NCBI GenBank assembly: GCA_031296325.1
Contig: JARLFY010000054.1
Span: 1-34,103, forward strand
Length of the DNA: 34,103 bases
DNA from: Acidobacteriaceae bacterium
GTDB lineage: Bacteria; Acidobacteriota; Terriglobia; Terriglobales; Acidobacteriaceae
Direction: 5' to 3'
Shown: positions 4,562-32,067 of the stretch, piece after piece
Numbering within the stretch: the stretch's first letter is position 1
Layout of the letters: every line of letters starts with the position of its first letter
Notes under the pieces: generated by a model
Databases searched by the model: none
The model's input: only the letters and a program-made list of their open reading frames with translations
Told to the model about the DNA's origin: nothing
Position numbers and translations under genes: made by a program

Positions 4562-4593
4562 GGGCCAAAGGCCTGTTCTATACCAGCCTAGGG
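4562..4593 (+). repeat. Three-hairpin repeat B, copy 1, left part
   Basis: Contains hairpin 1 (GGGCC AAA GGCCT), the spacer GTTCTATACCAG and the first half of hairpin 2, ending in CCTAGGG. The rest of the element resumes at 4857, so this copy is split by an insert. Confidence 0.8.
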
Positions 4594-4647
4594 TGTATCG
4601 ACATATAGATCTTTTGTAATTGCAGTTGTCCTTGCCTGTTTTTGTTT

Positions 4648-4690
4648 GTCATTCCGTAGCGCAGCGGAGGAATTTGTTTTTCGCCGTTGC
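4648..4690 (+). repeat. Dispersed hairpin repeat A, copy 3
   Basis: TGTCATTCCGTAGCGCAGCG then GAGGAAT, followed by TTTGTTTTTCGCCGTTGC. It lies within the insert at 4594-4856. Confidence 0.8.
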
Positions 4691-4761
4691 GGTTGTCTTT
4701 GCTGTTGCGGTTGTTTTTATAGCATTTTCCCCAAGGGGATAGATTTCCGTGGCGCGAGCAA

Positions 4762-4799
4762 CAAAGCAGATTCCTCCGCTTCGCTACGGAATGACAAAC
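4762..4799 (-). repeat. Dispersed hairpin repeat A, copy 4 (inverted)
   Basis: Reverse complement of the consensus: GCAGATTCCTCCGCTTCGCT then ACGGAATGACAAAC. Together with copy 3 it makes an inverted pair that could fold into a long stem within the insert. Confidence 0.8.
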
Positions 4800-4856
4800 A
4801 AAAGTGAGGCAACAGCAACAGTGGCGTCGCAAAGCAACGTGTATATGTCGATACGG

Positions 4857-4943
4857 CCTAGGGCGCAGCCCTAGGGTTACGGACAGCACAAAGACTGAGG
4901 GCTGAAGACCCGACCTATTCTGCCGAGAACTTTAGAGACAGGA
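4857..4943 (+). repeat. Three-hairpin repeat B, copy 1, right part
   Basis: Resumes with CCTAGGGCGCAGCCCTAGG (hairpin 2), then TTACGGACAGCACAAAGAC, hairpin 3 (GGGCTGAAGACCC) and CGACCTATTCTGCCGA. It ends in GAACTTTAGAGACAGGA (4927-4943), the same right end as the MITE-like element at 31876-32067, so this copy looks like a remnant of that element without its left end. Confidence 0.75.
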
Positions 4944-5096
4944 GCCTGAATAATCTACGCGCATGACCCCCCACAGCCCTCAGGCAAGACGTGGCACCGA
5001 TACACTCTTTGCCTAATCCGTGCTTCTATCCGCGTCATCCGCGTTAAGTTTCTCTGACGGAAAACTCCAGTGTTTATGTACAGATATGGACAGATT

Positions 5097-7274
5097 CTAA
5101 TGCGCAGCGAGTTCCGCTGAATCCACCATCCGCGGCTGCACCACGATGCCGTCAAACAGCGTCGCCGCCACCAGATGGTCGCCCACCGGACGCACAAAGC
5201 GCAGATTCCAGCCCGTATCCCATGCCCTCACCTGCATCGTCGCACTCTCCACCGCAAAGACCGCGGTCGATGGCCCGCTTGAGGTCAGCAGAACGCGTCC
5301 AGCCGCCTCGTCATAGTAAAGGCTGTTCACATTGCGCACACTCAGCCCCTTCGGCGTCGTCCAATTCGCGCCCTTGTCAGAGGAGAAGTAGACCCCATTG
5401 CGATCCCCAACCCACAGATCTCCCTTCCCATCGACCGCCAGTGCCGAGAGCTGTGTCACATCTTCCGGCAGCTTCACCTTCTGCCACTTCTTGCCGCTAT
5501 CCACAGAGATCTCCAGCGTATCCAGGCTCGCCGCCGCCACCACAGACCTCGCCGAAGCGATATAGCGCCACTCCGAACCGCCCAGCGCTGCAACCGCACT
5601 CCAGACCGTTCCGCTCGACACGCTGCGCAGAACTCCCTGCGAACTCGCCGCAAACAGCGTCTCCCCGCTTCTGGCAAAGCCATACACACTTCCATCGAAT
5701 TTCTTCTCTTCGACTGGAACGGGAGCCGACACAACGCGCTCCTTTGCCGCCGGACGAGTCGTCTGCTTCGCCTTCTTCGCTGCAACATGCGCGGTCTTGC
5801 CTCCCGCCGCTGCTGGCGGAACAGGCGCAGTTGGGACAACAATCTCCTCATCCCCCGTGCGCTTCCACTCCGATCCATTCAACCGATAGATTCCATGCTC
5901 AGTTCCCGCCAGAATCGTGCCGTCCGGCGCTTGCCCCAGACTGAAGGCGTCCCGCCCTTCCAGGCCGGCGCCAAGCTGCGACCAGCTCAGTCCGCCTGTG
6001 TGGCTCACAAACACGCCTCCGAAATCCTTATCATTCACCACGCCCACATACACCGTGGCGGGATGCTTGGCGTCGCCGGTGTACGCCGTAATCTGCCGCG
6101 CAGAGAATCCATTGTTCGACGACACAAAGCTCTTGCCCCCGTCGTCGCTCGCCAGAACGCCCTGACGATCCGTCGCCAGCAGCACCACCCGAGAGTCCGT
6201 CGGATCGACGTACACGTCGTTCACAATGACTGCGGAACTGGTCGTCTCGGCCCAGATCTTTCCTGCGCTGTCGGTGCGATACAGCCCCTCGGTCGTTCCG
6301 GCATAGACCGTGTCTGCGCGATTGGGATCCTGCATCAGCACACGAGTTCGCCGCGCGCTGGAAGGGATTCCCAGAGCCTTGACGAACTTCGCCCCACCAT
6401 CGACGCTCTTGTAGATCCCCGAACACGCGCTTGCATACACTACGTTCGAACGCTTCGGATCGACAATGATCGAGAAGACATCCGAGTCATCGATAATTCC
6501 CTGCTTGATGTTGGTCCAGCTCTTCCCCCCATCGGTCGTCTTCCAGGGCAGGTGCCAGGTTCCAGCGTAAATAATGTCCGGGTTCAGCGGATCGACCGCC
6601 AGCGACTCAATCTCGTGAATCTCGTGGCTATCCTTGGGGCTGATCCTCTCCCAGTGCGCGCCGCTGTCCACGGATCGAAAGACACCCTCCAGCGTTCCCG
6701 CCACCAGAACCTTCGCGTTCGAGGGAGCCGCCGTCAGAGCGCGAATCGACTGCCCACGCATCTCCTCCTGACTCGACCACGTCACACCGCCGTCGTTGCT
6801 GATGAACAGTCCGCCATCGGGATGGTTCAGATCGGTCAGGACCCACGCTCCAACCACCAGATGCCTGTTGTTCAGCGGATCGACCAGAATGTGGTCGATC
6901 ACCAGATCGTCCCGATTGCCGATCCGCGCCAGCCGCACCCACTGATTGCCCTCATCGTGCGACTCGTAGACCCAGCCGTTGGCCGCGCCCAGATACAGAT
7001 GCGCATGATCCCTCGGATCTGCCGCGATCGAGCGCGCAGAACCTCCGTCCGGCCCAAACGGAAACCACGAGACGGCATGCATCTGTGGGCAGACAAGAGA
7101 AAAGGCCAGAGCAATCGAAAGTATGTAAATCCGGTGGAATCTGCAATTCAATGTTGAAATCCATCCTGTTGCGTAAGCGTTATTTGTACTGATGAGCGAG
7201 TAAGTGTCCTGAGCCATTAATTCGCGGCACTCGAGTATTTCTCGAATTGCTGTAGACCTGAAATGAAATGTCAC
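5097..7274 (-). CDS. Exported Asp-box (BNR/VPS10-like) beta-propeller protein
   Basis: A large secreted repeat protein of unknown substrate. It shows about eleven Asp-box turns of the form S-x-D-x-G-x-x-W, for example SHDEGNQW (105-112), SNDGGVTW (159-166), SVDSGAHW (201-208), TTDGGKSW (246-253), SVDGGAKF (290-297), SDDGGKSF (376-383), and more near the C terminus. These fold as beta-propellers in sialidases, sortilin and Ycf48-type proteins. A Pro/Ala/Lys linker at about 480-525 separates a large first propeller from a smaller second one. A hydrophobic segment at about 50-62 (IYILSIALAFSLV) followed by QMHA looks like a signal peptide, so the GTG at 7274 may be too early; a TTG at 7151-7149 with GGATGG upstream would put the signal at the N terminus. 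No catalytic residues of a glycosidase can be assigned. A scaffold or binding role is inferred only. Confidence 0.85.
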   Translation of the reverse strand: MTFHFRSTAIREILECRELMAQDTYSLISTNNAYATGWISTLNCRFHRIYILSIALAFSLVCPQMHAVSWFPFGPDGGSARSIAADPRDHAHLYLGAANGWVYESHDEGNQWVRLARIGNRDDLVIDHILVDPLNNRHLVVGAWVLTDLNHPDGGLFISNDGGVTWSSQEEMRGQSIRALTAAPSNAKVLVAGTLEGVFRSVDSGAHWERISPKDSHEIHEIESLAVDPLNPDIIYAGTWHLPWKTTDGGKSWTNIKQGIIDDSDVFSIIVDPKRSNVVYASACSGIYKSVDGGAKFVKALGIPSSARRTRVLMQDPNRADTVYAGTTEGLYRTDSAGKIWAETTSSAVIVNDVYVDPTDSRVVLLATDRQGVLASDDGGKSFVSSNNGFSARQITAYTGDAKHPATVYVGVVNDKDFGGVFVSHTGGLSWSQLGAGLEGRDAFSLGQAPDGTILAGTEHGIYRLNGSEWKRTGDEEIVVPTAPVPPAAAGGKTAHVAAKKAKQTTRPAAKERVVSAPVPVEEKKFDGSVYGFARSGETLFAASSQGVLRSVSSGTVWSAVAALGGSEWRYIASARSVVAAASLDTLEISVDSGKKWQKVKLPEDVTQLSALAVDGKGDLWVGDRNGVYFSSDKGANWTTPKGLSVRNVNSLYYDEAAGRVLLTSSGPSTAVFAVESATMQVRAWDTGWNLRFVRPVGDHLVAATLFDGIVVQPRMVDSAELAAH

Positions 7275-7448
7275 CCTGCCCCTCGAACGAAGTGAAGGGG
7301 AAGAATTCCCGCATCTTGTTCGCAGCCGCTGAAAAGACTTGAACTGATGGATCGGAGGTTGAAACCATTCGACAATCGAGCTTTTCTTCTATACCAGAAT
7401 ACCGTGAAGACGCTCATTCAACGAATCTTCTTTCGTCCAAACAACACA

Positions 7449-7480
7449 ATGGCTGACTGGGAATCAACCCAGTCAGCCAT
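7449..7480 (-). terminator. Hairpin terminator after the OmpA-like gene
   Basis: A perfect 13-bp stem (ATGGCTGACTGGG / CCCAGTCAGCCAT) with loop AATCAA lies 24 bases past the stop. On the minus strand it is followed by TGTGTTGTTT, a T-rich tail suited to rho-independent termination. Confidence 0.75.
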
Positions 7481-7503
7481 CTGTGCTTTATTGCTATTTC
7501 GAA

Positions 7504-9192
7504 CTACTTCTTGTGCTTGTGTGTCTTCTTAACCGCCGTCCGAGGAACAGCCTTGACTGCGCTCTCGTTGACGACTGCATCGCTTGCGACGGGATTGACT
7601 GCGCCCGCCGGAATCAGCGTCGTAGTAACCGTCTTGTTGTCGGCCTTGCCGGTGTAGGTCACGATGCGCGAAGCCTCGATGCCCTTATCGGCAACCAGAT
7701 AGTCCTTGGTGTTGACAGCGCGCTCTGCGGCGAACACAGGCTCCTTGACGGCCTTCTTGTGCTTACCCTTCTTGACGATCATCTCCTTGGCTGAGGCATT
7801 TCCAACCAGTGCCAGCTTGGCATCGGGGGAGTGCTGCAGGTTCAGGGCGATGTCGTCCAGGCAGGCCTTCGCTTCGTTGTCAACGCGCGTCGGACGCTTG
7901 GCGTCACGCTCGAAGTTCACCGTGCAAAGGCTGCTGGCCAAAGGTGCAGCCGGAGCTGGCGGCGGGGGAGGAGCGATCACCGTAACGGTGGTCGTAGCCG
8001 AGACGCTCTGTCCCTTGTCGTCAACTGCGTTGCAGCTCACCGTGATCGGGCCAGGAGCCGCACCCACCGTCGACAACGTCGACGAGGAGCTTGTGCCGCT
8101 GATCGAACCAGCCGTTGCGCTGTAGCTATAGGTCAGAGGACGATTCTGCGGGCTGACTGCGTTCGCCGTAATCGTCGAGCTGTCGCCGGGGTTGACCGAC
8201 GAAGGATTCGCCGAGCAGCCAATGGTCGGCGGCTCAAACGCCTTCACTGTGAAGGTCGCCGAGCAGTCGGCAGACTGACCAGGCTTTGCACCCTCGCTCA
8301 CATGACCCTTCACCGTATAGGTGCCTGGCGCCGCAGCCTTTGTGTCCACGTTCGCAATCGCCGAGCTTCCCGTGATTACGCCGCCGTCTGTGGTCCAGTT
8401 ATACGTCGCGGTCTTCTTCGGATTCAGATTCAACACAACGCCCGTCACCGTGACCGGGTCGCCGGGGAAGCCAACCGCAGGGGCTACCGAGCAGCTATAG
8501 CTGACCGGAGGAGGAGGAATGATGTGGCCGAAGTGCGTCACAATTCCGGTGCTCAACTCAACCGCGTTCAGATTTGTGCGTCCGCCCAGCGCTCCACTCG
8601 TCGGAATCCCGACATAGGGGCCGAAGTCCGCGTGGATGTAGCGATAGTCGGCCTGAAAGAGTCGCAGGCTGAAGCGGTTGTTGAAGAACGGCAGATCGTA
8701 GTCCATACCGCCGCCCGCCGTCAGAGCTACGCCCCAGGTGTAGGGTTCGTGCTCAAGCGAGAGAGGAGCCTCGCTGTTCGGGCCGCCCAGACGAGCGCCG
8801 CCGACCAATCCATGCGCAAATACCGTGAAGTTCTCCATCGGCAGCCGTGCGATCGGGCCGACCGATACTCCCTGAACGCCGTCGTTCGGGTTGCCTTCGT
8901 TGGTCATGTGGTTGGTGTAGATCGCCTCGCCGCCAAAGTACTTGTTGACGTAGTAGGCTCCGCTGCCGATCACTCCCAGATTGATGGAGGAGTAGGGAAT
9001 GCCCGCAGGCTTCAACTGTCCGTGTGCGCCAAAGTAGGAGAACCCGGTGAAGACATCCACGCGAGACGGGTTCAGCGTCTTTACGGGAGCTGGTGCGGCG
9101 GGGGCCTGTGCACTCAGGCTTGCCGCGCTAAGGCCGACTACGCATGCAGCCAACGCGAACCTGCCGAGACTGCGAAACTGGTGATCTATCAT
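7504..9192 (-). CDS. Outer-membrane barrel / Ig-like / OmpA-C protein
   Basis: A 562-residue envelope protein. It has a signal peptide (residues 1-29, cut near SLSAQA), an eight-strand-type beta-barrel region with alternating hydrophobic strands at about 40-235, a Pro-rich hinge (PPPPVSYSC), two Ig/PKD-like domains at about 240-425 with paired cysteines, another PPPPP hinge, and an OmpA-C-like peptidoglycan-binding region at about 433-530 (NFERDAKRPTRVDNEAKACLDD and SRIVTYTGKAD). The tail is unusually basic (KKTHKHKK). The start is well supported by GGAGGA six bases upstream of ATG. It probably links the outer membrane to peptidoglycan; the extra Ig-like domains distinguish it from classic OmpA. 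Its own promoter probably lies in the AT-rich gap upstream. Function beyond structural anchoring is not visible. Confidence 0.85.
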   Translation of the reverse strand: MIDHQFRSLGRFALAACVVGLSAASLSAQAPAAPAPVKTLNPSRVDVFTGFSYFGAHGQLKPAGIPYSSINLGVIGSGAYYVNKYFGGEAIYTNHMTNEGNPNDGVQGVSVGPIARLPMENFTVFAHGLVGGARLGGPNSEAPLSLEHEPYTWGVALTAGGGMDYDLPFFNNRFSLRLFQADYRYIHADFGPYVGIPTSGALGGRTNLNAVELSTGIVTHFGHIIPPPPVSYSCSVAPAVGFPGDPVTVTGVVLNLNPKKTATYNWTTDGGVITGSSAIANVDTKAAAPGTYTVKGHVSEGAKPGQSADCSATFTVKAFEPPTIGCSANPSSVNPGDSSTITANAVSPQNRPLTYSYSATAGSISGTSSSSTLSTVGAAPGPITVSCNAVDDKGQSVSATTTVTVIAPPPPPAPAAPLASSLCTVNFERDAKRPTRVDNEAKACLDDIALNLQHSPDAKLALVGNASAKEMIVKKGKHKKAVKEPVFAAERAVNTKDYLVADKGIEASRIVTYTGKADNKTVTTTLIPAGAVNPVASDAVVNESAVKAVPRTAVKKTHKHKK

Positions 9193-9503
9193 TCGACTTC
9201 CTCCACTAGACTTACTTGTTATAGAGCGAACTGAGTTCCGTCGCTTCGGTACTTCCTTTGTTCAGGTCAACCAAATTCTATCGTAGTTGCCTGCATTGTC
9301 CAGAAAAACTTGTGCCCTGTTTCTTACATTAGAACGATTTACCACCAGAGCCAACTTCTTTTCCGGAAAAATCAAAATCTGTATCCAGCAAATAACTATA
9401 CAAAAAATGAACGAGCCTGTAATCCACTCCTTTGTCTCGGTCATCCATGCCTGAAATACCTGCCGCAATCAGCGATTGCCGTGTTTTCCTTGTCTAAAAC
9501 CAC
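9193..9503. other. AT-rich gap between nuoB and the OmpA-like gene
   Basis: About 310 bases; the half nearest the OmpA-like gene is AT-rich and likely promoter DNA. A 68-codon TTG-started reading on the minus strand (9262-9468) contains a hydrophobic run but has no ribosome site, so I do not call it. No repeat copy is seen here. Confidence 0.5.
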
Positions 9504-10136
9504 TCACGCCAGATTCAAGGTCTTTCGCACCGAACCCCGCTCCTGCTGGATCTTCTCCTGCAACAGCGTAATGGCATACAGCAACTGCTCTGGTCGCGGG
9601 GGGCATCCTGGAACATAGATGTCCACGGGAACGATTTGGTTGACTCCCTGCAACACCGCGTAGTTATTGAAGACGCCGCCCGAGGTCGCGCAGGCGCCCA
9701 TCGAGATCACCCACTTCGGCTCCGGCATCTGCTCATACAGGCGGCGAATCACCGGAGCCATCTTCTGCGAGACGCGTCCGGCCACAATCATCAGGTCGCT
9801 CTGTCGCGGCGAAGGTCGAAAGACCTCTGCTCCGAATCGCGCAATGTCGTAGCGCGCTCCACCCATCGACATCATCTCAATGGCGCAGCAGGCCAGACCA
9901 AACGTCATCGGCCACACCGAGTTCTTGCGCACCCAGTTGATCGCCGCGTCCATCGACGCCAGCACGATTCCCTCCGGGGCCTCGTCTCCCCAGTTCACCT
10001 CGCGCAGCTTCTCGCGATTTTTGCCGAAGCTATCCAGTGACCCGAAGAAATATCGATCATCCGCCTGCGGCCCCGTCGCCTGAGCCTCAGTCGTCAACCG
10101 TCCATCGCCGAAGTTTTGATCTGTATTTATTGACAT
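9504..10136 (-). CDS. nuoB: NADH-quinone oxidoreductase subunit B
   Basis: NuoB carries cluster N2, the last iron-sulfur centre of respiratory complex I before quinone, on the cytoplasmic side of the inner membrane. In the 210-residue form the four ligands are present: tandem C83-C84 in [12 protein letters not shown]149 in [10 protein letters not shown] and C178 in [13 protein letters not shown]. All other core motifs ([26 protein letters not shown]) are intact, so it should be functional. The first 50 residues are longer and more polar than in E. coli NuoB. I chose ATG at 10136; a GTG six codons upstream (10154) is possible, and neither has a strong ribosome site. Oddly, no other nuo gene is adjacent: it is flanked by glnD and the OmpA-like gene. 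It may be a dispersed single subunit or a second copy beside a nuo operon elsewhere. Confidence 0.95.
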
Positions 10137-10287
10137 ATATTTAGTCTCTACCACTATAAACCGGTTGCCAAAAAAAGTTTCGCTGATCTTTCACAATCGA
10201 TCCGCGAACGGTCGGATTATCGTCTCTTACTTGGTTGTCATTCCCAGTCAGATGCGTTCACTTTCCCTCTGGTTGGCTGGTATGCGA

Positions 10288-13011: not shown

Positions 13012-13031
13012 ACAACCACCCAACCCCAACG

Positions 13032-13070
13032 CAAAAAACAAGCCTCAGATCTCGTATTGAGACCTGAGGC
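13032..13070 (-). terminator. Rho-independent terminator after glnB
   Basis: The arms GCCTCAGGTCTC and GAGATCTGAGGC (one mismatch) with loop AATAC form a 12-bp stem, followed on the minus strand by TTGTTTTTTG. This is the best classical terminator in the window and lies between glnB and glnD. Confidence 0.85.
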
Positions 13071-13101
13071 CCTGCATACCTATAAATCCGAACCCAATCC
13101 G

Positions 13102-13488
<387 letters not shown>

Positions 13489-13562
13489 CTACGGCGCATT
13501 ACAGCCGCTACTATCAGATGCATCCCCGTGCCAAGAGATGCACCCCTGTTCTGCGAAGCGGC

Positions 13563-13587
13563 CGATCTGAACTCAAAATTCAGATCG
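13563..13587 (-). other. Hairpin between amtB and glnB
   Basis: A 9-bp inverted repeat (CGATCTGAA / TTCAGATCG) with a 7-base loop lies in the 170-base amtB-glnB gap. It has no T-tract, so it is more likely a processing or attenuation hairpin than a full terminator; co-transcription of the two genes remains plausible. Confidence 0.4.
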
Positions 13588-17308: not shown

Positions 17309-17333
17309 GCTCAGAGACAGCGTCTCTCTTGTT

Positions 17334-17370
17334 TGTCATTCCACAGCGCAGCGAAGGAATCTGCTTTTGC
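17334..17370 (+). repeat. Dispersed hairpin repeat A, copy 5
   Basis: TGTCATTCCACAGCGCAGCG then AAGGAATCTGCTTTTGC, placed 25 bases after the alcohol dehydrogenase stop. Confidence 0.8.
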
Positions 17371-17417
17371 TCGCGCCACAACGGTCTGCGCCATTCCCTT
17401 AAAACATCTCAATACAA

Positions 17418-18729: not shown

Positions 18730-18865
18730 ATCGACAGAATAAGTGGTTTTGCGCTCAATGGGAACCCTCTGCTGTAAACTTTGTATCTTTCGACCTGATC
18801 CACCCCACCTAATCAGCGCAAAACTCGTGCGTCCAGCATCGTTATCCTCGCGCACAGGATACTTT

Positions 18866-18910
18866 CCGGGTGCCCCACCCATCGCGGTTTCACCGCGATG
18901 GGTGGGAAGG
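18866..18910 (+). repeat. Hairpin repeat C, copy 1
   Basis: CCGGGTGCC leads into a perfect 15-bp stem (CCCACCCATCGCGGT / ACCGCGATGGGTGGG, 18874-18906) with a TTC loop. It sits between divergent pgk and the ATPase gene, so it is not a terminator by position. A relative occurs at 30596-30637. Confidence 0.75.
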
Positions 18911-18997
18911 AAACCGCCCGCACTATAGATTTGTTTCGCGTCGATACACTCGAGCCGGACTATAGGTCAATAAAGCCAAGGAACTATACTTATAGCT

Positions 18998-20566
<1,569 letters not shown>

Positions 20567-22017: not shown

Positions 22018-22020
22018 GCC

Positions 22021-22233
22021 GTATCGACATATAGAGCGAGACCTACAGTCGTTACTCTTTCTTCTATTGACTGTTTTTGCTGTTGTCTTTGTCTGGCAAG
22101 AGCCAAAGGTCCGTCCTATACCAGCCTAGGCCGCAGGCCTAGGTAAACGTACAGCACAACACTGAGGGCTGAAGGCCCGACCTATAGCCTTCGCGCAATC
22201 ATCAATTATGCCGAGCCAGCTATATGTCGATAC
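22021..22233. repeat. Module bounded by 14-bp inverted GTATCGACATATAG
   Basis: A 213-bp segment with perfect terminal inverted repeats GTATCGACATATAG (22021-22034) and CTATATGTCGATAC (22220-22233). It contains a TTGCTGTTGTCTTTGTC-type low-complexity run and a complete repeat B copy. The same ends bound the insert at 4594-4856, but the cargo differs. There is no coding capacity. Confidence 0.65.
22100..22185 (+). repeat. Three-hairpin repeat B, copy 2
   Basis: Hairpin 1 is partly decayed (GAGCC AAA GGTCC). Hairpin 2 is CCTAGGCCGCAGGCCTAGG, with a compensatory change relative to copies 1 and 4. Hairpin 3 is GGGCTGAAGGCCC followed by CGACCTAT. Confidence 0.8.
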
Positions 22234-22264
22234 GCCCTAGCGCAGGTTATAAGATTGCAACGCA

Positions 22265-23736: not shown

Positions 23737-23922
23737 TGTTTTCCCCTTCTAATGGGTCACGGATCCTGCCGTGTGTTGTTGAGTGGCTGCAAGAACTTCG
23801 AGGAACAGCTCTCCTCTGAACGCCGTTGGCGAACCCGTTCTGGCCAGAGATAAGATGCGTGGGGAATCCGAATCGATCAGTTTTCGGATTCACGAAGTTG
23901 CGAGGTCGTACCGATCGAGAAC

Positions 23923-23952
23923 GGCGGCTTCGGCTCCTTTACGGAAGCCGCC
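23923..23952 (-). other. Hairpin in the fruA-oprB gap
   Basis: A 9-bp GC-rich stem (GGCGGCTTC / GAAGCCGCC) with a 12-base loop, 12 bases past the fruA stop, and no T-tract. A second 9-bp stem (GAATCCGAA / TTCGGATTC) lies at 23864-23891. These may protect the 3' end of the upstream message or partly terminate, uncoupling porin expression from fruBKA. Confidence 0.45.
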
Positions 23953-23963
23953 ATAGATTCCTT

Positions 23964-25694
23964 TCAAACCAATTGCATGGGCTGTTTTTTCTTGGCGATG
24001 CGCAGCGCCAGAGTCGTAATCACGGTTCCGGCCAGAACAGCACAGGCATAGTGCATCAAACCCTGCACGGCGTTGGGGATAAACAGAACGAAGATGCCTC
24101 CGTGCGGAACCTTCAGTTGCACCCCCGTAGCCATGGAGATTGCCCCAGCCACCGCCGAGCCGATCATCAGGCAAGGAATTACGCGCAGAGGATCTTCAGC
24201 CGCATAAGGAATCGCTCCTTCGGTAATAAACGACAGCCCCAGAATCGCGGTCGCTTTTCCCTCCGCCCGCTCATGGGCGTTGAAGCGGTTTTTGAAGAGC
24301 ATGGTCGCCAGCGCAAGTCCCAGCGGCGGGGTCATTCCCCCGGCCATGACTGCGGCGATCGGCCCATAGACATTCGACGCCAACATGCCCAGCGAGAAGG
24401 TATAAGCCGCTTTATTTACCGGGCCGCCCATATCGAAGGCCATCATGGCTCCGAGGATGAGCCCCAGAACCAGCGCGCTGGCCTGCTGCATTCCGTTCAG
24501 CCAGTTGGTCAGCCAGCCGAGAGCAATCTTTACCGGAACTCCCACAACATAGATCATGACCAGTCCGACGATGAGCGTGGAAAGTAGCGGCAGCACCAGC
24601 ACGGGCTTGATCCCAGCCAACTCCTTCGGCAGCTTGATGTAGTCGTTGAGAAATTTAGTCAGGTAGCCAGCCAGAAAGCCAGCCACAATGCCTCCCAGAA
24701 ATCCCGCGCCAAGCGTTGCCGAGAGCATTCCGCCAACCAGTCCGGGACAGATACCGGGACGATCGGCAATAGAGTACGCGATGAATGCAGCCAGCACCGG
24801 AGTGTACAGCTTGAAGGCCGTCGCTCCGCCGATCTGCATCAGCGCCCAGCCCAGAGTTCCCGTCTTATCGCCGGCATGGATCCCGCCCACCGCAAAGGAC
24901 AGCGCGATCAGCAGACCTCCGGCGATAACCAACGGCAGCATGTAGGAGACGCCCGTCATCAGATGCTTGTAAGCGCCCGTGCGCTGCTGCTTCTCCACCT
25001 TGGGAGCGTTCTTCTCTGCCGCCGTGGGCATGGGGAGAGCCAGCGCCCTCGCGATAACGTCCTTGCCCCCGTGAATCGCGTCATTGGTGCTGGTACTCAG
25101 CAGGCGCACGCCTTCAAATCGGGCCGTATCCACATGCGTATCGGCGGCAATAATGGACGCATCGGCGAGGCGAATATCCTCCTCCGTCAGCGTGTTCTTG
25201 GCTCCCACCGAACCCTGCGTCTCCACCTTGATCTCGTAGCCCAGATCCTGAGCGGCCTTGCGTAGCGCGGCAGCCGCCATAAAGGTATGCGCAATGCCGG
25301 TCGGACAGGAGGTAATGGCCACCAGCCGCGGCACGGACTTCTCGACCGGCGCAGCCTTCTCCGGCACCGCAGGCAACGCAGCAATCTCCTGCGGAGCTGC
25401 GACCAATCCCAATGCATCTCGCATCACCTTGTCCGTGTGCGCAATGACCTCGCTCGCCGAGACGGCAACCACCTTGTTGTCCTTGAAGCGCTCGTCCGCT
25501 TGCGCACTCTCTCCAACCAACAGAACCACGGCGGCGGAGTTGAGCGGCGACGCTGCCCTCTGCGCCGCCAGATCGGGCATCTCCAGAGTAAGATCATATC
25601 CGCCACGCAAGGCGCATGCCTTCAGGGCTTCGACGGCTAGCCGGGTGTGGGCGCCGCTCAGATTGCTACCGAGTACTGCGATAAGTTTAGCCAC
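23964..25694 (-). CDS. fruA: PTS fructose permease, IIB'-IIB-IIC
   Basis: The membrane part of the fructose phosphotransferase system; it imports fructose and releases fructose-1-phosphate. The 576-residue chain has a degenerate N-terminal IIB' domain without the active cysteine (LIAVLGSNLSGAHTR, 1-100), an active IIB domain with phospho-cysteine C130 in SCPTGIAHTFMAAAAL, and a IIC membrane domain from about 235 with GVSYMLPLVIAGGLLIALSF, AFDMGGPVNKAAY and ITEGAIPYAAEDPLRVIP. This order matches E. coli FruA (563 residues). The start is GTG at 25694, two bases after the fruK stop, with AGGAG seven bases upstream inside fruK; a TTG two codons earlier is too close to that site. Translation is likely coupled to fruK. 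IIA, HPr and Enzyme I are supplied by FruB. Confidence 0.96.
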   Translation of the reverse strand: MAKLIAVLGSNLSGAHTRLAVEALKACALRGGYDLTLEMPDLAAQRAASPLNSAAVVLLVGESAQADERFKDNKVVAVSASEVIAHTDKVMRDALGLVAAPQEIAALPAVPEKAAPVEKSVPRLVAITSCPTGIAHTFMAAAALRKAAQDLGYEIKVETQGSVGAKNTLTEEDIRLADASIIAADTHVDTARFEGVRLLSTSTNDAIHGGKDVIARALALPMPTAAEKNAPKVEKQQRTGAYKHLMTGVSYMLPLVIAGGLLIALSFAVGGIHAGDKTGTLGWALMQIGGATAFKLYTPVLAAFIAYSIADRPGICPGLVGGMLSATLGAGFLGGIVAGFLAGYLTKFLNDYIKLPKELAGIKPVLVLPLLSTLIVGLVMIYVVGVPVKIALGWLTNWLNGMQQASALVLGLILGAMMAFDMGGPVNKAAYTFSLGMLASNVYGPIAAVMAGGMTPPLGLALATMLFKNRFNAHERAEGKATAILGLSFITEGAIPYAAEDPLRVIPCLMIGSAVAGAISMATGVQLKVPHGGIFVLFIPNAVQGLMHYACAVLAGTVITTLALRIAKKKQPMQLV

Positions 25695-25696
25695 GA

Positions 25697-26677
25697 TCAA
25701 TCTCCTATTCCTGCTGCTGCCAAATTCGCTTCTGCGCCGACGTTCTCAACCCGAACCTGCTTCTCGAACTCGTGTAGCTTCCCTGCGTCCAAACCTGCTC
25801 CAACCCGAGTGACGGAGTAGGCTCCCAGCGCAGTTGCCACACGCGCGGTCGCCTCCAATCCATATCCGTTGAGTTGCGCATAGATAATTCCTGCAACCAT
25901 CGCATCGCCCGCGCCGACGGTACTCTTGACCTCGACCTTGGGAGGCTTTGCCAGCAGAGCCGCCGCGCGGGTGACGAAGACCGCGCCCTGCTCTCCCATC
26001 GAGACCACGGCCAGTTCAACCCCGTTGCGAACCAGCGATGCGGCCGCTGTCGCCACCTCCTGCGGAGTCTTCAACGCATGACCAATCAGCTCTTCCAACT
26101 CCGCCAGATTGGGCTTGACGATCTCAGGAGACTGCGCAATGGCCAGACGCAGCGGTTCGCCGCTGGTATCGAGAACGATGCGCCCTCCCTTGCCGCGGAT
26201 TTCCGTAATCAGACGCGCATAAATATCCGTGGAGATGCCCGGAGGCAGGCTTCCCGAAAGCACAATCCAACGGCCCGCTTCCACGCAATCGAGTACGGCG
26301 CCGACCAGCCGTTCAATCTCATCCCCGTCAGGAGCCAAGCCGGGAAAGTTGATGTCCGTGGTCTGATTGCCCTCCGCATCGACGATCTTGATTCCAATCC
26401 GCGTGGCTCCGGGGATGCGAACGAAGTGATCCGAGATCGCCTTCTGGCGAAAGTGTCTTTCAAAGATTCCCAGATTCTCATAGCCCAGAAATCCAGTAGC
26501 CAGAACCTCAACCCCAAGGTCGGCCAGAACCGAGGAGACATTGACCCCCTTGCCGCCAGCGTCGATTCGGCTGGATTTCACCCGATTCACCTCTCCGACA
26601 TGAAAGCCCGCAAGATGCACCGTCTGGTCGATGGCCGGATTCAGAGTTACCGTTACGACTGTCGATTGGCTTGTCAT
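25697..26677 (-). CDS. fruK: 1-phosphofructokinase
   Basis: FruK phosphorylates fructose-1-phosphate to fructose-1,6-bisphosphate using ATP, feeding PTS-imported fructose into glycolysis. The 326-residue protein is a PfkB/ribokinase-fold kinase: TLNPAIDQTV at 11-20, the first PfkB signature region DAGGKGVNVSSVLADLG at 39-55, and the second signature STVGAGDAMVAGI with catalytic base D258. ATG at 26677 overlaps the fruB stop as ATGA and has GGAG nine bases upstream, so the two are translationally coupled; a much longer open frame upstream runs antisense-like through fruB and is not used. The C-terminal tail after about 305 is Ala-rich and variable. Position between fruB and fruA fixes it as FruK rather than tagatose-6-phosphate kinase. 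Confidence 0.96.
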   Translation of the reverse strand: MTSQSTVVTVTLNPAIDQTVHLAGFHVGEVNRVKSSRIDAGGKGVNVSSVLADLGVEVLATGFLGYENLGIFERHFRQKAISDHFVRIPGATRIGIKIVDAEGNQTTDINFPGLAPDGDEIERLVGAVLDCVEAGRWIVLSGSLPPGISTDIYARLITEIRGKGGRIVLDTSGEPLRLAIAQSPEIVKPNLAELEELIGHALKTPQEVATAAASLVRNGVELAVVSMGEQGAVFVTRAAALLAKPPKVEVKSTVGAGDAMVAGIIYAQLNGYGLEATARVATALGAYSVTRVGAGLDAGKLHEFEKQVRVENVGAEANLAAAGIGD

Positions 26678-29166
26678 TCGGATTTGCTCCTTTCGGCTGC
26701 GGCATACAGCGCGCGCACCGACTCCACATCGGAGCAGGCCAGCGCCTGCACCGCCAGAGTCTTCGCTTCCGCTCGTGAGATCGTGCGAATCGCGGCCTTG
26801 ACCGCGGGAATGCTGGGGATGGCCATGCTCAACTCCTTCACCCCTAGACCGATCAGAATCGCGGCGCCAATCGGATCGTCGGCCAGTCCGCCGCAGACCC
26901 CAACCCACTTGCCATGCTTCGTTGCCGCTTCCACGGTCTTGGCGATCATGCGCAACACGGCGGGATGCGTGCTCTGCGCCTCCTTGGCCAGAGTCGCATT
27001 GCCCCGATCCATGGCCAGCACATACTGGGTCAGATCGTTGGTTCCGACCGAGAAGAAGTCAGCTTCCTGCGCCAACTCCTCCGCCATCACGACGGCTGCC
27101 GGAACCTCGATCATCGTCCCAATCTCGACCGGAGCCACGCCGAGCGATCGGCGAACCTCTTCTGCAATCTTCTTGGCCGCAATCAGTTCGGCAGGAGCGG
27201 CGATCATGGGAAACATCAGCTTCAGGTTGCCATGCACCGAAGCGCGATAGGCGGCGCGAAGCTGCGTCCGAAACAACTCCTGATGCCGCATGCAGAGACG
27301 AATTCCGCGTACCCCCAGAAAGGGATTATCCTCGTGCGGCAGGTCGATATAGGGAATCTTCTTGTCGCCGCCAATATCCAGAGTGCGCAGAATCAGAGGA
27401 AGGCCGTCGAGCGCCGTCAGCATCTCACGATAGGCCTCATACTGCTCCTGCTCGGAGGGCGGCTGATCGCGTTCGAGAAAGAGGAACTCAGTTCGCAGCA
27501 GGCCGACGCCCTCGCCTCCCGCCTCCAACGCCTGCGCGGCTTCGGCGGCGCGACCAATATTGGCGCAGACCTCCACGCGTACCCCGTCCGTCGTCAGAGC
27601 GGGTTGAAAACGAGCCTCAAACTGGAGCGCATGGACCTCTTCCAATCCTTGCTGCGCCACCCGCGCTGAGTTGATGTCCTCCTGCGCCGGGTCAAGATAC
27701 AGAACGCCCTGCGCCGCGTCGAGAATGGCAAACTCGCCCTCCTGCATATCCTCCAACCCATCGCCGATTCCCGTAATCGCCGGAATGTTCAGCGAACGCG
27801 CCAGAATCGCTACATGCGAAGTCGCGCTGCCCTCCACGGTGCAGAAGCCGACGATCTTCGCCGGATCAAACGCCGCCGCCTGCGAGGGAGTCAGTTCGCG
27901 AGCCACCAGCAGAATCGGCTCGTCGGAGTCGATCTCTTCCGCCTGCGGTTTGCCTTCCTGCAACAGATGGCGCAGAACCCGCGCTCCAATGTCGCGAATG
28001 TCGGTGGCGCGGGCGGCGGTAATCTCGTTGCCCGAAACCTCCACCGAAGAGGCCAGCTTCTCAATCTCCGAGTTCCACGCATAGGAGGCGCTGGGCGTAA
28101 TGTCGATACACTTCTCCGCTCGCGCCAGCAGAGCGTCGTCCTGCAAAAGCTCCGCCTGAGCCAGAAAGATCTGCGCCGCCTGCTCGGAGTTGCGCGTCCT
28201 GACCTGCTCATACAGCGCCTTCAAATCCTCCTGCGCCGCAGCCAGCGCAGCCCGCAACTGCTGCTTCTCCCTCTCGGGATAGTTGGTCGGAGCGGCAAGA
28301 ACCGCCTTCCTGGCATGAAGCAGGTGAATGCGCGCCATCGCCAGTCCGGGAGAGATGCCCACCCCAACGACCTTGCTCACCGGATGCAGCGGCTTCCAGG
28401 AGATCTTCTTCACCACTTGGCGCTTCTCCTCGACCTCTTCCGCTTCCATCTGCATCTTCAACGCTTCAAGAGCCTGCGCCGCATCCGGCCCATCGGCCAG
28501 AATCCGCACCACCACGCCATGCTCGGCTCCGAGTTGAAGCAGCGAGGCCATAATCTTGCCATCCACCCGCTTCGATCCCGCCTGAACCTGAATGCTGCAC
28601 TGGAAGCTGCGCGCCTTGGTGGCAAACAGCGTCGCCGGTCGCGCGTGCAATCCGTGCGCGGCTCCAATCTTGGCATTGATGCCGATAGTCGTGGCGCTCA
28701 ACGCCTCCAGTTGCGAAGCTCCCGCTTCAGCAGCGGAGTCCGAAGCCAGCAGCGCCGCAACAATCTGATTGGCATCCGTCGTACCCGACAGCGTCTCGAC
28801 CAACTCCTCCTGCGACAACAACTCTGTCAGCTTTGCCAGCAGCTCCAAATGCTCGTCGGACTTCGCCGCAATGCCCACCACCAGACGAACCGTCTCCGAG
28901 GGCTGCCACTCCACCCCAGCCGGAAACTGCACCACCGCAATGCCCGTCTTGCAGATCAGGCCGCGATCGGCAGGCAGCCCGTGAGGGATGGCGATGCCAT
29001 GACCGAGATAGGTGTTGGCCAGCTTCTCCCGCTCCATCATGCTGGCGGTATAACCGGAATCGATATTCCCCTTCTCCACCAGAATCTGGCTGACCTGTCG
29101 AATGGCGTCTTCCTTGTTCTTCGCCACCGCCCCGATGCGTACGCTCGCTACCGTAAAGTCCAACAT
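26674..29166 (-). CDS. fruB: Multi-phosphoryl transfer protein IIA-HPr-Enzyme I
   Basis: One 830-residue chain carries the whole soluble PTS relay. Residues 1-145 are a fructose-type IIA domain with phospho-histidine H62 (LGHGIAIPHG). Residues about 160-250 are HPr, with H174 in AAHGLHARPAT; no clear HPr serine-kinase site context is obvious. From about 265 follows Enzyme I: phospho-histidine H451 in EGSATSHVAILARSL, PEP-binding regions LDIGGDKKIPY (597-606) and EIGTMIEVPAA (681-691), and the C-terminal catalytic C758 in GVCGGLADDP. Domain order and length match FruB of Xanthomonas and Rhodobacter. ATG has GGAGGG eight bases upstream. It is the first gene of the fruBKA-oprB run, behind a promoter overlapped by a LacI-type operator. 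It should make fructose uptake independent of general PTS proteins. Confidence 0.97.
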   Translation of the reverse strand: MLDFTVASVRIGAVAKNKEDAIRQVSQILVEKGNIDSGYTASMMEREKLANTYLGHGIAIPHGLPADRGLICKTGIAVVQFPAGVEWQPSETVRLVVGIAAKSDEHLELLAKLTELLSQEELVETLSGTTDANQIVAALLASDSAAEAGASQLEALSATTIGINAKIGAAHGLHARPATLFATKARSFQCSIQVQAGSKRVDGKIMASLLQLGAEHGVVVRILADGPDAAQALEALKMQMEAEEVEEKRQVVKKISWKPLHPVSKVVGVGISPGLAMARIHLLHARKAVLAAPTNYPEREKQQLRAALAAAQEDLKALYEQVRTRNSEQAAQIFLAQAELLQDDALLARAEKCIDITPSASYAWNSEIEKLASSVEVSGNEITAARATDIRDIGARVLRHLLQEGKPQAEEIDSDEPILLVARELTPSQAAAFDPAKIVGFCTVEGSATSHVAILARSLNIPAITGIGDGLEDMQEGEFAILDAAQGVLYLDPAQEDINSARVAQQGLEEVHALQFEARFQPALTTDGVRVEVCANIGRAAEAAQALEAGGEGVGLLRTEFLFLERDQPPSEQEQYEAYREMLTALDGLPLILRTLDIGGDKKIPYIDLPHEDNPFLGVRGIRLCMRHQELFRTQLRAAYRASVHGNLKLMFPMIAAPAELIAAKKIAEEVRRSLGVAPVEIGTMIEVPAAVVMAEELAQEADFFSVGTNDLTQYVLAMDRGNATLAKEAQSTHPAVLRMIAKTVEAATKHGKWVGVCGGLADDPIGAAILIGLGVKELSMAIPSIPAVKAAIRTISRAEAKTLAVQALACSDVESVRALYAAAERSKSE

Positions 29167-29202
29167 ACCGTTTTCCCTCCCGCTCTGATCTAACGAAACA
29201 GA

Positions 29203-29218
29203 ATGTAATCGTTTACAT
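29203..29218. promoter_or_regulatory. LacI-type operator before fruB
   Basis: ATGTAATCGTTTACAT, a near-perfect palindrome with the central CG typical of LacI-family sites. It overlaps the -10 of the fruB promoter. A near-identical site lies before the regulator gene (29369-29384). Confidence 0.75.
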
Positions 29219-29231
29219 AAATATTTGTCAA
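29203..29231 (-). promoter_or_regulatory. Promoter of the fruBKA operon
   Basis: On the minus strand a perfect -35 TTGACA (29231-29226) is followed after 17 bases by TTACAT (29208-29203) as -10. The operator covers the -10, consistent with repression by the divergent regulator. The flanking DNA is strongly AT-rich. Confidence 0.65.
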
Positions 29232-29368
29232 CACTTTTTTGAAAATATTTTTGCCCTGATTACCGAGTATCTAATCGCGCCCACACGCCCAACACAACTA
29301 ATTTGTTTTGAATGGGGTATGCAATATTTTGCCGACTTCTATTCCGCTCCGCACCAAACTCTGGCACG

Positions 29369-29384
29369 ATGTAATCGTTTGCGT
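29369..29384. promoter_or_regulatory. LacI-type operator before the regulator gene
   Basis: ATGTAATCGTTTGCGT shares 14 of 16 bases with the fruB operator. It lies just upstream of TATATT (29386-29391), a plausible -10 of the regulator gene, and so suggests autoregulation. Confidence 0.65.
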
Positions 29385-29441
29385 GTATATTGATTCAGGG
29401 GAGCAGAACGAACTTGATTTATGGTTGATAGAAGGAGATTT

Positions 29442-30437
29442 ATGGCGAGTATTCGTGATGTTGCGCAAGAATGCGGCGTTTCCACGGCAACCGTGTCCCG
29501 GGCGCTGGCGGGTAAGCAGCACATCCGCGAAGAGGTGCGACAGCGGGTTATGGAGGCGGCGCAACGGCTGGATTACCGGCCCAACCGGGCGGCGCGCAAC
29601 CTGCGCTCGAATCAGTCCTCCACCATCGGGCTGATCGTCTCCGACATTCAGAATCCCTTCTTTACCAGCATCTGCCGCGCCGTCGAGGACACCGCGCTCA
29701 AGGCGGGATTCGCCGTCTTTCTCTGCAACACGGACGAGGATCCAGAGAAAGAAGCTCTCTACCTGCGCCATCTCTCCGAGGAAAATGTTGCGGGAATCAT
29801 CTTTGCGCCAACCGGTCGCATGGCCGGAGATTTCAAAAAGATGAGCGACCTCTCCATGCCTCTGGTGGTCATCGATCGTCCCATCGGAAAAGATGTGGCC
29901 GACACGGTTGTCATCGATAATTCTGCCGCAGCATGCGACCTGACCGAGCACCTGATCTCGCACCATCGTACCCAGATCGCAGGAATCTTCGGCGCCAAGA
30001 GCCAGACCGGAGAGGAGCGGCGAAAGGGCTTTCAACTGGCCCTACAGAAGAACGGGCTTGCGGAGAGAAAAGATCTGCTGCGTTCCGTTCCTCCTCGCGA
30101 AGAAGAGGGGTATAAAGCGGTCTGCGAACTGCTCGCCCTGCCCAATCCTCCCGACGCCATCCTCACCACCAACGGACTTCTTGGCCTCGGCGCATATCGC
30201 GCTTTGATGGAGAGCGGAAGAAAGTTTCCCGAAGAAGTATCGTTTGCCACGTTCGACGAGGCCCCTTGGGTCTCGCTGGTCAAGCCCTCGGTCACGGTAC
30301 TCGAACAGCCAACCTACGAGATCGGATCAACCGCGGCTGGACTGCTTCTCCTGCGGATCGAAGATCCCAAACGCTCCATTCGTCAGGTAGAACTCAAACA
30401 CAATCTAGTCATTCGCCACTCCTGCGGCTGCATATAA
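29442..30437 (+). CDS. fruR: LacI-family fructose regulator
   Basis: A 331-residue DNA-binding repressor/activator. The N-terminal helix-turn-helix (SIRDVAQECGVSTATVSRAL, about 3-22) and hinge helix (RPNRAARNLRS) are classical LacI; the rest (from TIGLIVSDIQNPFFTSICRAVED at about 61) is a periplasmic-binding-protein-like effector domain with the conserved FATFDEAPWVSLVKPSVTVLEQP block. The start is ATG at 29442, with AAGGAG six bases upstream; a reading seven codons longer has no such site. It diverges from fruB, and both promoters carry the same 16-bp operator, so control of fruBKA and of itself is inferred. The effector is probably fructose-1-phosphate or fructose-1,6-bisphosphate, as for Cra/FruR proteins, but this is by analogy. 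Confidence 0.9.
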   Translation: MASIRDVAQECGVSTATVSRALAGKQHIREEVRQRVMEAAQRLDYRPNRAARNLRSNQSSTIGLIVSDIQNPFFTSICRAVEDTALKAGFAVFLCNTDEDPEKEALYLRHLSEENVAGIIFAPTGRMAGDFKKMSDLSMPLVVIDRPIGKDVADTVVIDNSAAACDLTEHLISHHRTQIAGIFGAKSQTGEERRKGFQLALQKNGLAERKDLLRSVPPREEEGYKAVCELLALPNPPDAILTTNGLLGLGAYRALMESGRKFPEEVSFATFDEAPWVSLVKPSVTVLEQPTYEIGSTAAGLLLLRIEDPKRSIRQVELKHNLVIRHSCGCI

Positions 30438-30595
30438 TCCCCGCCCGCTCCTCAACACATTTTCGTCATTACAGCCATACCGACACTCATACCCGGGACC
30501 CCATCTTCGGCGCAGCTTCATCACGCCTAAGGTGGGGTTCGTTGCCGTCGCTGTCGCGTTGCCGTCGCCGTTGCGTTGCCGTCGTTTTGCTGTTG

Positions 30596-30637
30596 CCGGG
30601 TGCCCCATCCATCGCAGCAACATCGCGATGGGTGGGA
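30596..30637 (+). repeat. Hairpin repeat C, copy 2
   Basis: Begins CCGGGTGCC like copy 1. The stem is CCCATCCATCGC / GCGATGGGTGGG (30604-30615 and 30624-30635) with one wobble pair and a changed loop. Confidence 0.7.
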
Positions 30638-30689
30638 TAAATACCGCTCGCACCACTAGCCCCTGCCGTTGCCTTTGCCTATCTTTGTT

Positions 30690-30732
30690 TGTCATTCCGT
30701 AGCGCAGCGGAGGAATCTGCTTTTGCCGTTGC
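30690..30732 (+). repeat. Dispersed hairpin repeat A, copy 7
   Basis: TGTCATTCCGTAGCGCAGCG then GAGGAATCTGCTTTTGCCGT. It runs directly into the 12-bp tandem array. Confidence 0.8.
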
Positions 30733-30780
30733 TTTTGTCGTTACTTTTGTCGTTACTTTTGTCGTTGCTTTTGTCGTTGC
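30721..30780 (+). repeat. 12-bp tandem array, five units
   Basis: Five contiguous units of consensus TTTTGTCGTTGC fill exactly 60 bases: the first has GCC for GTC, and the second and third end in TTAC rather than TTGC. There are no spacers, so this is a tandem repeat and not a CRISPR. It joins repeat A to repeat B. Confidence 0.9.
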
Positions 30781-30787
30781 TTGGCAA

Positions 30788-30875
30788 GGGCCAAAGGCCC
30801 GTTCTATACCAGCCTAGGCTGAAGGCCTAGGTTTACGTTCAGCACAAAGACCAAGGGCTGAAGGCCCGCCCTATA
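30788..30875 (+). repeat. Three-hairpin repeat B, copy 3
   Basis: Hairpin 1 GGGCC AAA GGCCC; hairpin 2 CCTAGGCTGAAGGCCTAGG, with a GAA loop and a T-G pair; TTTACGTTCAGCACAAAGAC; hairpin 3 GGGCTGAAGGCCC. It ends about 55 bases upstream of mtgA. Confidence 0.8.
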
Positions 30876-30929
30876 ACTCCGTCTTTGCATATCCACAAAA
30901 GTAAACCCGATCCAGCTATCATTCTGAAT

Positions 30930-31637
30930 GTGACCTCAAAGCCATCCCCCTCGCGCAAGAGACCGCGTCGCAAGAGCCTTCTCCGATCCTTTTTTCGATG
31001 GCTCGTCATCGCCGTGGTGTCTCTATGGTCGCTCGCCGCGTTGACTCTTGTGGCCGCCCGCTGGATCGATCCGCCGACGACTGCGGTACACATCGAGCGT
31101 CGCTTGCAGGCCCAGATCAGCGACACGCCGTATCAGGAGCGCTATAAGTTCATCCCGCTGAGCCAGATCTCTCCCAATCTCCAGCACGCCGTCGTCGCCG
31201 CAGAGGATGCGCGCTTCTACCAGCACCACGGCTTCGATTGGCACGCCATCCAACTCGCCGCGCAAGAGGACATGGAGGGAGGTCGCACACGCGGCGGCTC
31301 CACCCTGACCCAGCAACTCGTAAAAAACCTCTTCTTCGGAACCGGACGTTCCTACCTGCGCAAGGCTGCGGAGACGACCCTGGTTCCGGTGGCGGAACTC
31401 GTCCTCGGCAAGCGGCGCATTCTGGAGCTATACCTCAACGTGGTCGAATGGGGTCCCGGCATCTACGGCGCAGACGCGGCGTGTCGAACCTACGACGGAG
31501 CCTCGGCCCGCGCTATTGACCGACAACAGGCGGCGCGGCTCGCCGCAATTCTACCGGCCCCGCGGAAACGACGGCCCGAGCGCATGAATAGCTACAGCGC
31601 AGTCATCCTCAAGCGAATGCGTCAGATGGGCTGGTAG
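30930..31637 (+). CDS. mtgA: Monofunctional peptidoglycan transglycosylase
   Basis: MtgA polymerises lipid II into glycan strands at the periplasmic face of the inner membrane. The 235-residue form has a very basic cytoplasmic N terminus (SRKRPRRKS), one membrane segment at about 22-43, and a GT51 domain: catalytic Glu in VVAAEDARFYQHHGFDW (E92), the RGGSTLTQQLVKNLFF motif at about 121-136, the third motif KRRILELYLNVVEWGPGIYG and the later A-x-LPAPRK. There is no transpeptidase domain, hence monofunctional. GTG at 30930 (MTSKPS) is my preferred start; a TTG at 30885 is possible but falls nearly in repeat B. Neither has a good ribosome site. It appears monocistronic. Confidence 0.93.
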   Translation: MTSKPSPSRKRPRRKSLLRSFFRWLVIAVVSLWSLAALTLVAARWIDPPTTAVHIERRLQAQISDTPYQERYKFIPLSQISPNLQHAVVAAEDARFYQHHGFDWHAIQLAAQEDMEGGRTRGGSTLTQQLVKNLFFGTGRSYLRKAAETTLVPVAELVLGKRRILELYLNVVEWGPGIYGADAACRTYDGASARAIDRQQAARLAAILPAPRKRRPERMNSYSAVILKRMRQMGW

Positions 31638-31690
31638 TCGTAAGCCGCATTTCCATAGAGCATTTCCACGATTGCTGTAAAGTATTAGGA

Positions 31691-31733
31691 TTGTCATCCA
31701 GAGCGAGCGAAAGGCGCGAGTCGAAGGATCTGC
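31691..31733 (+). repeat. Dispersed hairpin repeat A, copy 8 (diverged)
   Basis: TTGTCATCCAGAGCGAGCGA then AAGGCGCGAGTCGAAGGATC and TGC. The outer arms ATCC/GGAT are kept while the loop is longer and different. Confidence 0.6.
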
Positions 31734-31875
31734 GTTTCTCTTCGTACGGCAGCACTCTATCCCATTGGAAAAGGCTATAAAACCTCCGCACCCGCCCTGC
31801 TTTGAATGGCCGAAATGCCAGTCCAGCACCGCAAGCCCCCGCATTCAACGAGCCTTTATTGGCTGCGAAAAGATC

Positions 31876-32067
31876 CTAGTGTCCTGTCTCTGAAGTTCAA
31901 TGCATATTGTCGCGCGCTATGGACGTCGAACAAAGGCCAGTTGAACCAAGGGCCAAAGGCCCGTTCTATACCAGCCTAGGGCGCAGCCCTAGGGTTACGT
32001 TCAGCACAAAGACCAAGGGCTGAAGGCCCGACCTATTCTGCCGAGAACTTTAGAGACAGGACACTAG
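31876..32067. mobile_element. MITE-like element with CTAG ends
   Basis: A 192-bp non-coding element with 23-bp terminal inverted repeats differing at one position: CTAGTGTCCTGTCTCT... at 31876-31898 and its complement ending ...AGAGACAGGACACTAG at 32045-32067. Ends in CTAG could be a 4-bp target duplication or part of the repeat. It encloses a full repeat B copy. A separate right end of the same kind is at 4927-4943. No transposase is present, so any movement would be in trans. Confidence 0.7.
31950..32036 (+). repeat. Three-hairpin repeat B, copy 4
   Basis: The most regular copy: hairpin 1 GGGCC AAA GGCCC, GTTCTATACCAG, hairpin 2 CCTAGGGCGCAGCCCTAGG, TTACGTTCAGCACAAAGACC, hairpin 3 GGGCTGAAGGCCC, CGACCTAT. 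Confidence 0.85.

Follow-up and report, generated by a model that had tools for sequence, protein, structure and literature searches.

The three-hairpin repeat that occurs four times in the window, by which we mean the whole stretch of 34,103 nucleotides of an Acidobacteriaceae bacterium that was analysed here, can with good confidence be regarded as the end unit of a small HUH-Y1 transposon that was dispersed as solo, non-autonomous copies, i.e. as a REP-like element. Indeed, the repeat has a defined structure with covarying stems, it stands in inverted position at the ends of one specific subtype of Y1 transposase gene, and it is dispersed in numerous copies. Two of its three hairpins correspond to Acido-Lenti-1 (RF01687), which is filed in Rfam as Gene; sRNA. 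On balance, we favour the view that Acido-Lenti-1 represents the DNA end of a mobile HUH-Y1 system rather than a family of RNAs, with an end architecture of its own (three hairpins, of which the outer and the inner are direct repeats of one motif). In this view, the transposases of subclass 1.2 constitute a REPtron-like lineage of their own that occurs in Acidobacteria, Verrucomicrobia, Planctomycetes, Lentisphaerae, Bacteroidetes and others and spreads solo units as well as gene-less inverted dimers. The label of Acido-Lenti-1 as an RNA is probably wrong.

All four copies lie on the minus strand of the window at the places where an earlier note on this DNA had located them, according to both the reading of the sequence and the matches of a model (R1) built from 29 copies of the window's own genome only. 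R1 recovers all four (best E 4e-33), with copy 1 split and with copies 2, 3 and 4 being part of its training set, and has 87 matches at E<=1e-3 in the 2.6-Mb genome. Read on the minus strand, hairpin 3 (GGGCCTTCAGCCC) of a complete unit is followed, after a variable spacer, by hairpin 2 (CCTAGGCCTTCGGCCTAGG type), which a linker of 12 bases (CTGGTATAGAAC) connects with hairpin 1 (GGGCCTTTGGCCC). One motif is directly repeated in hairpins 3 and 1, as TATAGGTCGGGCC... and TATAGAACGGGCC..., respectively (alignment A1 of the 29 own-genome copies). Complete units are present in copy 3 (30779..30879, minus strand; hairpin 1 at 30788-30800, hairpin 2 at 30813-30831, hairpin 3 at 30855-30867; 114.1 bits with R1) and copy 4 (31941..32041, minus strand; hairpins at 31950-31962, 31975-31993 and 32017-32029; 113.2 bits). 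Copy 2 (22091..22190, minus strand; hairpins at 22100-22112, 22125-22143 and 22166-22178; 103.9 bits) is likewise complete, with a decayed hairpin 1 (GAGCCAAAGGTCC) that contains one broken pair and one G-T pair. Copy 1 is divided into a hairpin 1 part (4553..4611, minus strand; hairpin 1 at 4562-4574; 32.7 bits) and a part with hairpin 2 (4857-4875) and hairpin 3 (4899-4911; 4829..4923, minus strand; 62 bits), because an inverted-repeat element of 266 bp (4592..4857) sits inside its hairpin 2; the arms of this element are 90% complementary and CTAG is duplicated on its two sides, at 4588-4591 and 4858-4861. The common order of the hairpins and the compensatory changes in hairpin 2 among the copies read as they had been described. 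The uniformity claimed for the hairpin sequences does not extend to all copies: besides the decay in copy 2, hairpin 1 of copy 1 reads GGGCCAAAGGCCT, its hairpin 3 (GGGCTGAAGACCC) has one broken pair, and the spacer between the hairpins varies. Copy 1 itself is present, but the end that had been assigned to it (4927-4943) belongs to another repeat, common to copy 4. We agree that the element does not encode a protein.

The element had not been recognised as a member of a named family, which has to be revised. On the minus strand, the RF01687 model (46 positions) matches three of the four copies across hairpin 1, the 12-base linker and hairpin 2: copy 4 (44 bits, 31949-31993) passes the gathering score of 37, and copies 3 (34.6 bits, 30787-30831) and 2 (31.8 bits, 22099-22143) fall under it. 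Copy 1 gave no match to RF01687. The model thus covers hairpin 2, hairpin 1 and the linker of our unit, and differs from it in stopping before hairpin 3, in omitting the inverted pairing around the gene and in being filed as an sRNA. In the window's own genome, 38 matches to RF01687 were found at E<=1e-3, 25 of them above the gathering score. Acido-Lenti-1 is associated with group II introns. According to the accessible part of a Tannerella paper from 2026 (PMC13298647), Acido-Lenti-1 ncRNAs are little understood, and a regulatory effect on some genes is suggested for copies that lie downstream of them.

Conservation of the folded structure is evident at two scales. Among the 29 copies of the window's genome, 98.8% of the cells pair and two-sided changes occur in 5 of 17 pairs; none of 500 shuffles equalled the real alignment in covariation score or in the percentage paired, and 63 of 500 reached its number of pair types. 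In 96 units from several phyla (taken from 48 of 96 fetched loci), two-sided changes are found in 16 of 17 pairs and the stem letters differ widely; the covariation score is 0.452 as against 0.004 to 0.087 with slid partners, in an alignment that was fitted to the structure of the model and still has kinship in it. Both data sets support the selection on folded structure that had been suggested from the window. Folded as single-stranded DNA, three copies of the window are only moderately better than shuffled sequences (z -2.71, -1.61 and -2.45); the predicted fold of copy 4 consists of the three hairpins, and the predictions for copies 2 and 3 are a mixed minimum instead of three separate hairpins. 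As for the alternative of RNA or cruciform DNA that had been left standing, the DNA side is favoured: the inverted position of the units at the ends of a single subtype of Y1 transposase gene speaks for DNA, in the form of a folded single strand.

This placement was first seen in a Y1_Tnp search of 396 genomes of the phylum, in which three genes were close to listed copies of RF01687. A full element measures ~640 bp and has the architecture hp1-hp2-hp3-tnpA-hp3-hp2-hp1, with hairpin 1 (hp1) outermost and hairpin 3 (hp3) nearest to the gene; tnpA encodes a HUH-Y1 (IS200-like) transposase of ~148 aa with the subtype motifs DHVH, WQ and YxxxQxxHH. In a first sample of 16 Y1 loci (G029, G257:C7 and G073:C86 were picked after RF01687 had been seen nearby), RF01687 adjoins the gene in 13, on both sides in 11 and on one side in two (L064 and L073). 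At the both-side loci it lies on the minus strand to the left and on the plus strand to the right, with 4 of the 22 units being found only at E 0.1-0.3. At a further locus (L070) units were found on both sides by R1 and none by RF01687, and two IS200-type genes (L066 and L076) have no units. The proteins encoded at the 14 flanked loci have a length of 143 to 150 aa; WQ, Y, Q and HH are invariant in all of them, and the HUH aspartate is replaced by N in one. All 14 match the Pfam Y1_Tnp and NCBIfam IS200 models, and a profile made from them matches TnpA of ISHp608 (E 1.2e-13).

A second sample provided a fair test, as it comprised the next 16 genes of the subtype and the first 16 other Y1 genes by list order, all in RF01687-bearing genomes, passing over genes already seen and G257:C19:2-397, which is cut by a contig end. 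RF01687 was present on both sides of 11 subtype genes, on one side of three and at neither side of two (n=16). No match was found at the 16 other Y1 genes, neither to RF01687 nor to any Rfam family at E<=0.5; two of these controls are near-identical (L247 and L248), one has a single flank (L260) and two have ~250 bases on one side (L261 and L262). The difference is significant for any unit (14/16 vs 0/16; Fisher p 5e-7) and for units on both sides (p 7e-5). The two groups are well separated by profile A2 (195-231 bits for the subtype vs 41-71 bits for other Y1 proteins) and by the YxxxQxxHH motif (16 vs 0). At L269 and L276, which were missed by Rfam, hairpins are visible by eye, the right-hand unit of L269 being wrongly oriented.

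The association is found in several phyla. When named genomes were scanned with the 14 subtype proteins, 80 loci were kept, which span Acidobacteria, Verrucomicrobia, Planctomycetes, Lentisphaerae, Bacteroidetes, Armatimonadetes, Kiritimatiellota and others. A correctly oriented R1 unit lies <=150 bp from 56 of 94 subtype genes (on both sides in 31, on one side in 25; L074 and L077 among the tested loci are one locus), and 38 of the 94 have no correctly placed R1 unit; near subtype genes, 89 units have the expected orientation versus 15 the opposite one. A model-free count gives the same picture, with a density of perfect hairpins of 1.61 per 110 bp next to the gene as compared with 0.32 farther off, and in 42 of 76 loci the two flanks form inverted repeats above 99% of the mismatched null (four of the 80 were dropped for a flank of <100 bases). 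RF01687 was found at E<=1e-3 in 33 of 40 genomes chosen from the 80 loci, with 111 matches in Terriglobus albidus, which belongs to the Acidobacteriaceae, the family of the window's genome, and 34 in the Lentisphaerae genome of locus L109.

Several described systems resemble this arrangement. The unit-flanked genes, i.e. the neighbours of the units and not the window itself, carry the signature of TnpA-Y1 subclass 1.2 (DH[IV]H, WQ, Y---Q--HH, ~148 aa) in all of the first 14 cases, and YxxxQxxHH in 16 of 16 more. In the accessible part of the 2018 classification (PMC6006769), subclass 1.2 is listed as REP 'no', without IS properties and mostly from Cyanobacteria and Bacteroidetes. It was thus published, as far as this part goes, without REPs or terminal hairpins, whereas the genes studied here are flanked by units and occur in several other phyla. 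Class 3 of the same classification, again by the part available, is similar in its 'atypical secondary structures' (about 600 copies in Solibacter usitatus), in its occurrence in Acidobacteria and Planctomycetes and in having several hairpins adjoining the gene; it differs by its Y----Q and NHVH motifs and its CnGA foot from the Y---Q--HH type, a separation drawn from the published description. Our genes lack the Y----Q motif of class 3, with three residues instead of four between Y and Q. TIRtrons (TIRYT; PMC3733652) likewise combine Y1 genes in Acidobacteria with inverted repeats, some of them self-complementary and some repeated in the genome. They are set apart here by their description, the available part of which draws no link to Acido-Lenti-1, and some of the acidobacterial genes may represent the same system; both class 3 and TIRYT elements may be close kin of the elements described here or partly the same thing.

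The REP / RAYT (REPIN) system shares dispersed palindromes that occur singly or as inverted dimers, also around a Y1 gene. A classical RAYT (class 2) was what we had expected at first, and was ruled out by the protein motifs, which have Y---Q instead of Y---NP. Moreover, the units have three hairpins each and no GT[AG]G foot: the bases 5' of hairpins 3 and 1 are mostly of the GTC and AAC/GAC types (alignment A1, by eye, on both strands). With IS200/IS605 elements (IS608, ISDra2) our elements share the Y1 core and hairpins near the ends. The ends of IS608 are single, non-inverted hairpins, whereas those found here are long inverted three-hairpin units.

Repeat and subtype gene tend to occur in the same genomes. 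In the survey of 396 genomes, in which a per-genome RF01687 count of 15 stands for at least 15, RF01687 is present in 96. Repeat and subtype gene occur together in 68 genomes, the repeat only in 28 of the 96, the gene only in 13 of 81, and neither in 287 (odds ratio 54, with kinship ignored and at a gene cut-off of E<=1e-20, which a few genes of other subtypes may pass). In the window's own genome (88.8% complete) no Y1 gene was found at E<=1e-3 and no subtype gene either, so that the copies there are probably left over from an earlier burst, as relics or dependants. Within the genus (31 genomes), the number of units varies from 0 to 78, with no R1 match at E<=1e-6 in 13. Full-length subtype genes are present in three of these genomes (G382, G195 and G147), a fragment at a contig edge in G445, and in G438 a partial match that lies in an open frame 150 aa long. 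A subtype match at E<=1e-15 was obtained in 4 of 11 genomes with at least 10 units as opposed to 1 of 20 with fewer (p 0.04; one of the four is the contig-edge fragment and one the partial match), and 7 of the 11 unit-rich genomes, including that of the window, have no good subtype match. For such unit-rich genomes we prefer the explanation that the gene was lost after the burst. Loss of REPtrons through deletion has been reported in E. coli (PMC3733652, in the part available).

These distributions also bear on the reading of the repeat as a true non-coding RNA that acts in trans, as its filing in Rfam has it. The covariation of the stems suits an RNA equally well, and a 2010 paper (PMC2864571) grades Acido-Lenti-1 as 'y', probably RNA, in its accessible part. 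Against this stand the copy numbers, both the extreme in T. albidus and the variation within one genus, the inverted arrangement on both strands at the ends of a transposase gene, and the mtgA locus, where six relatives have no unit in the orthologous region and the window has two (the flanks align too poorly to read the junction). We therefore consider an RNA function of this kind very improbable. Two complete elements occupy the same place in T. albidus / G281 (L074) and in G241 (L075), with 1.6 kb of one flank in common; they are mutually inverted, as recombination between the inverted ends of the element would give. G281, a genome of the window's family, is identical to a T. albidus contig over 4001 bp. 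On the 6.4-Mb single contig C1 of G241, 3 of the 59 listed RF01687 matches lie between 1.8 and 4.5 Mb, so that their placement is uneven, and no replication-strand bias is evident by eye among these 59.

A different account would make the units passengers of other inverted-repeat transposons, with the Y1 gene merely one more landing place. Indeed, copy 2 is enclosed by an inverted-repeat element (22018..22236; TATCGACATATA type arms, 88% complementary over 25 nt; ends TTAG / CTAG) and copy 4 by another (31880..32063; TGTCCTGTCTCTGAAGTTC type arms, 96% complementary over 23 nt including CTAG, which is duplicated), the two being of different kinds. The element around copy 2 starts at the stop codon (TAG) of the ORF that lies upstream. 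Genomes that are rich in units but lack the subtype gene would fit this account as well, and so would genome G398, in which 17 gene-less inverted dimers are spaced 142-153 bp apart, with none in the opposite order at such spacing: these dimers (L158 to L186) are embedded in a larger repeat, with flanks that remain conserved to well outside hairpin 1, and this larger repeat may be what spread. Among 30 own-genome copies, however, outer inverted arms exceed the 90th percentile of the mismatched null in only two (L003, which is copy 4, and L009, with another repeat) and the 99th percentile in none. Units as cargo of inverted-repeat elements are thus unsupported as a general rule on these 30 copies and true of copies 2 and 4, possibly also of G398. 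Nor would passengers account for correctly oriented units on both sides of one Y1 subtype in several phyla as against 0 of 16 other Y1 genes, which leaves this account improbable, with the end unit of a Y1 transposon as the reading that we prefer.

By analogy with IS200/IS605 and REP biology, the hairpins of such an end unit would fold while the DNA is single-stranded during replication or repair. The transposase may then recognise hairpins 1 and 3, the two related copies of one motif, together with their single-stranded feet. Cleavage by its tyrosine would allow either the whole ~640-bp element or the gene-less units to move. Candidate places at which the transposase would contact or cut the DNA are the conserved linker CTGGTATA and the TATAG feet. 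Whatever their origin, the dispersed units could have been taken over for a role in the host, such as marking transcript ends or binding DNA, as has been proposed for REPs. Their position is intergenic, with copies 2 and 4 lying between converging genes (as judged from long ORFs), and this accords with such a role, whereas the decayed hairpins of copies 1 and 2 and the 13 genomes of the genus without an R1 match do not; we regard it as unlikely.

Acido-Lenti-1, subclass 1.2, the hairpins of class 3 and the acidobacterial TIRtrons are all in print, each separately. As far as the accessible text of the open-access literature goes, no paper was found that joins Acido-Lenti-1 with the transposase of subclass 1.2, and subscription papers or supplements may contain the link. 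Joining them gives a family of unknown function in Rfam an identity that can be tested, and supplies a hairpin partner for a transposase subclass that was described without one. It also predicts that many annotations as 'Acido-Lenti-1 ncRNA' denote the remains of mobile DNA.

Other repeats are found near the copies in the window. Palindromic intergenic repeats of the CATTCCGTAGCGCAGCGGAGGAAT type (3156-3208, 4642-4694, 17329-17381 and 30685-30737) and of the CCCATCGCGGTTTCACCGCGATGGG type (18863-18923 and 30593-30653) often adjoin the hairpin 1 side of units. Short-period repeats of the GTTGCCGTTGTC type (4510-4560 and 30540-30785) lie on the hairpin 1 side, both at copies 1 and 3 and at numerous copies elsewhere in the genome.
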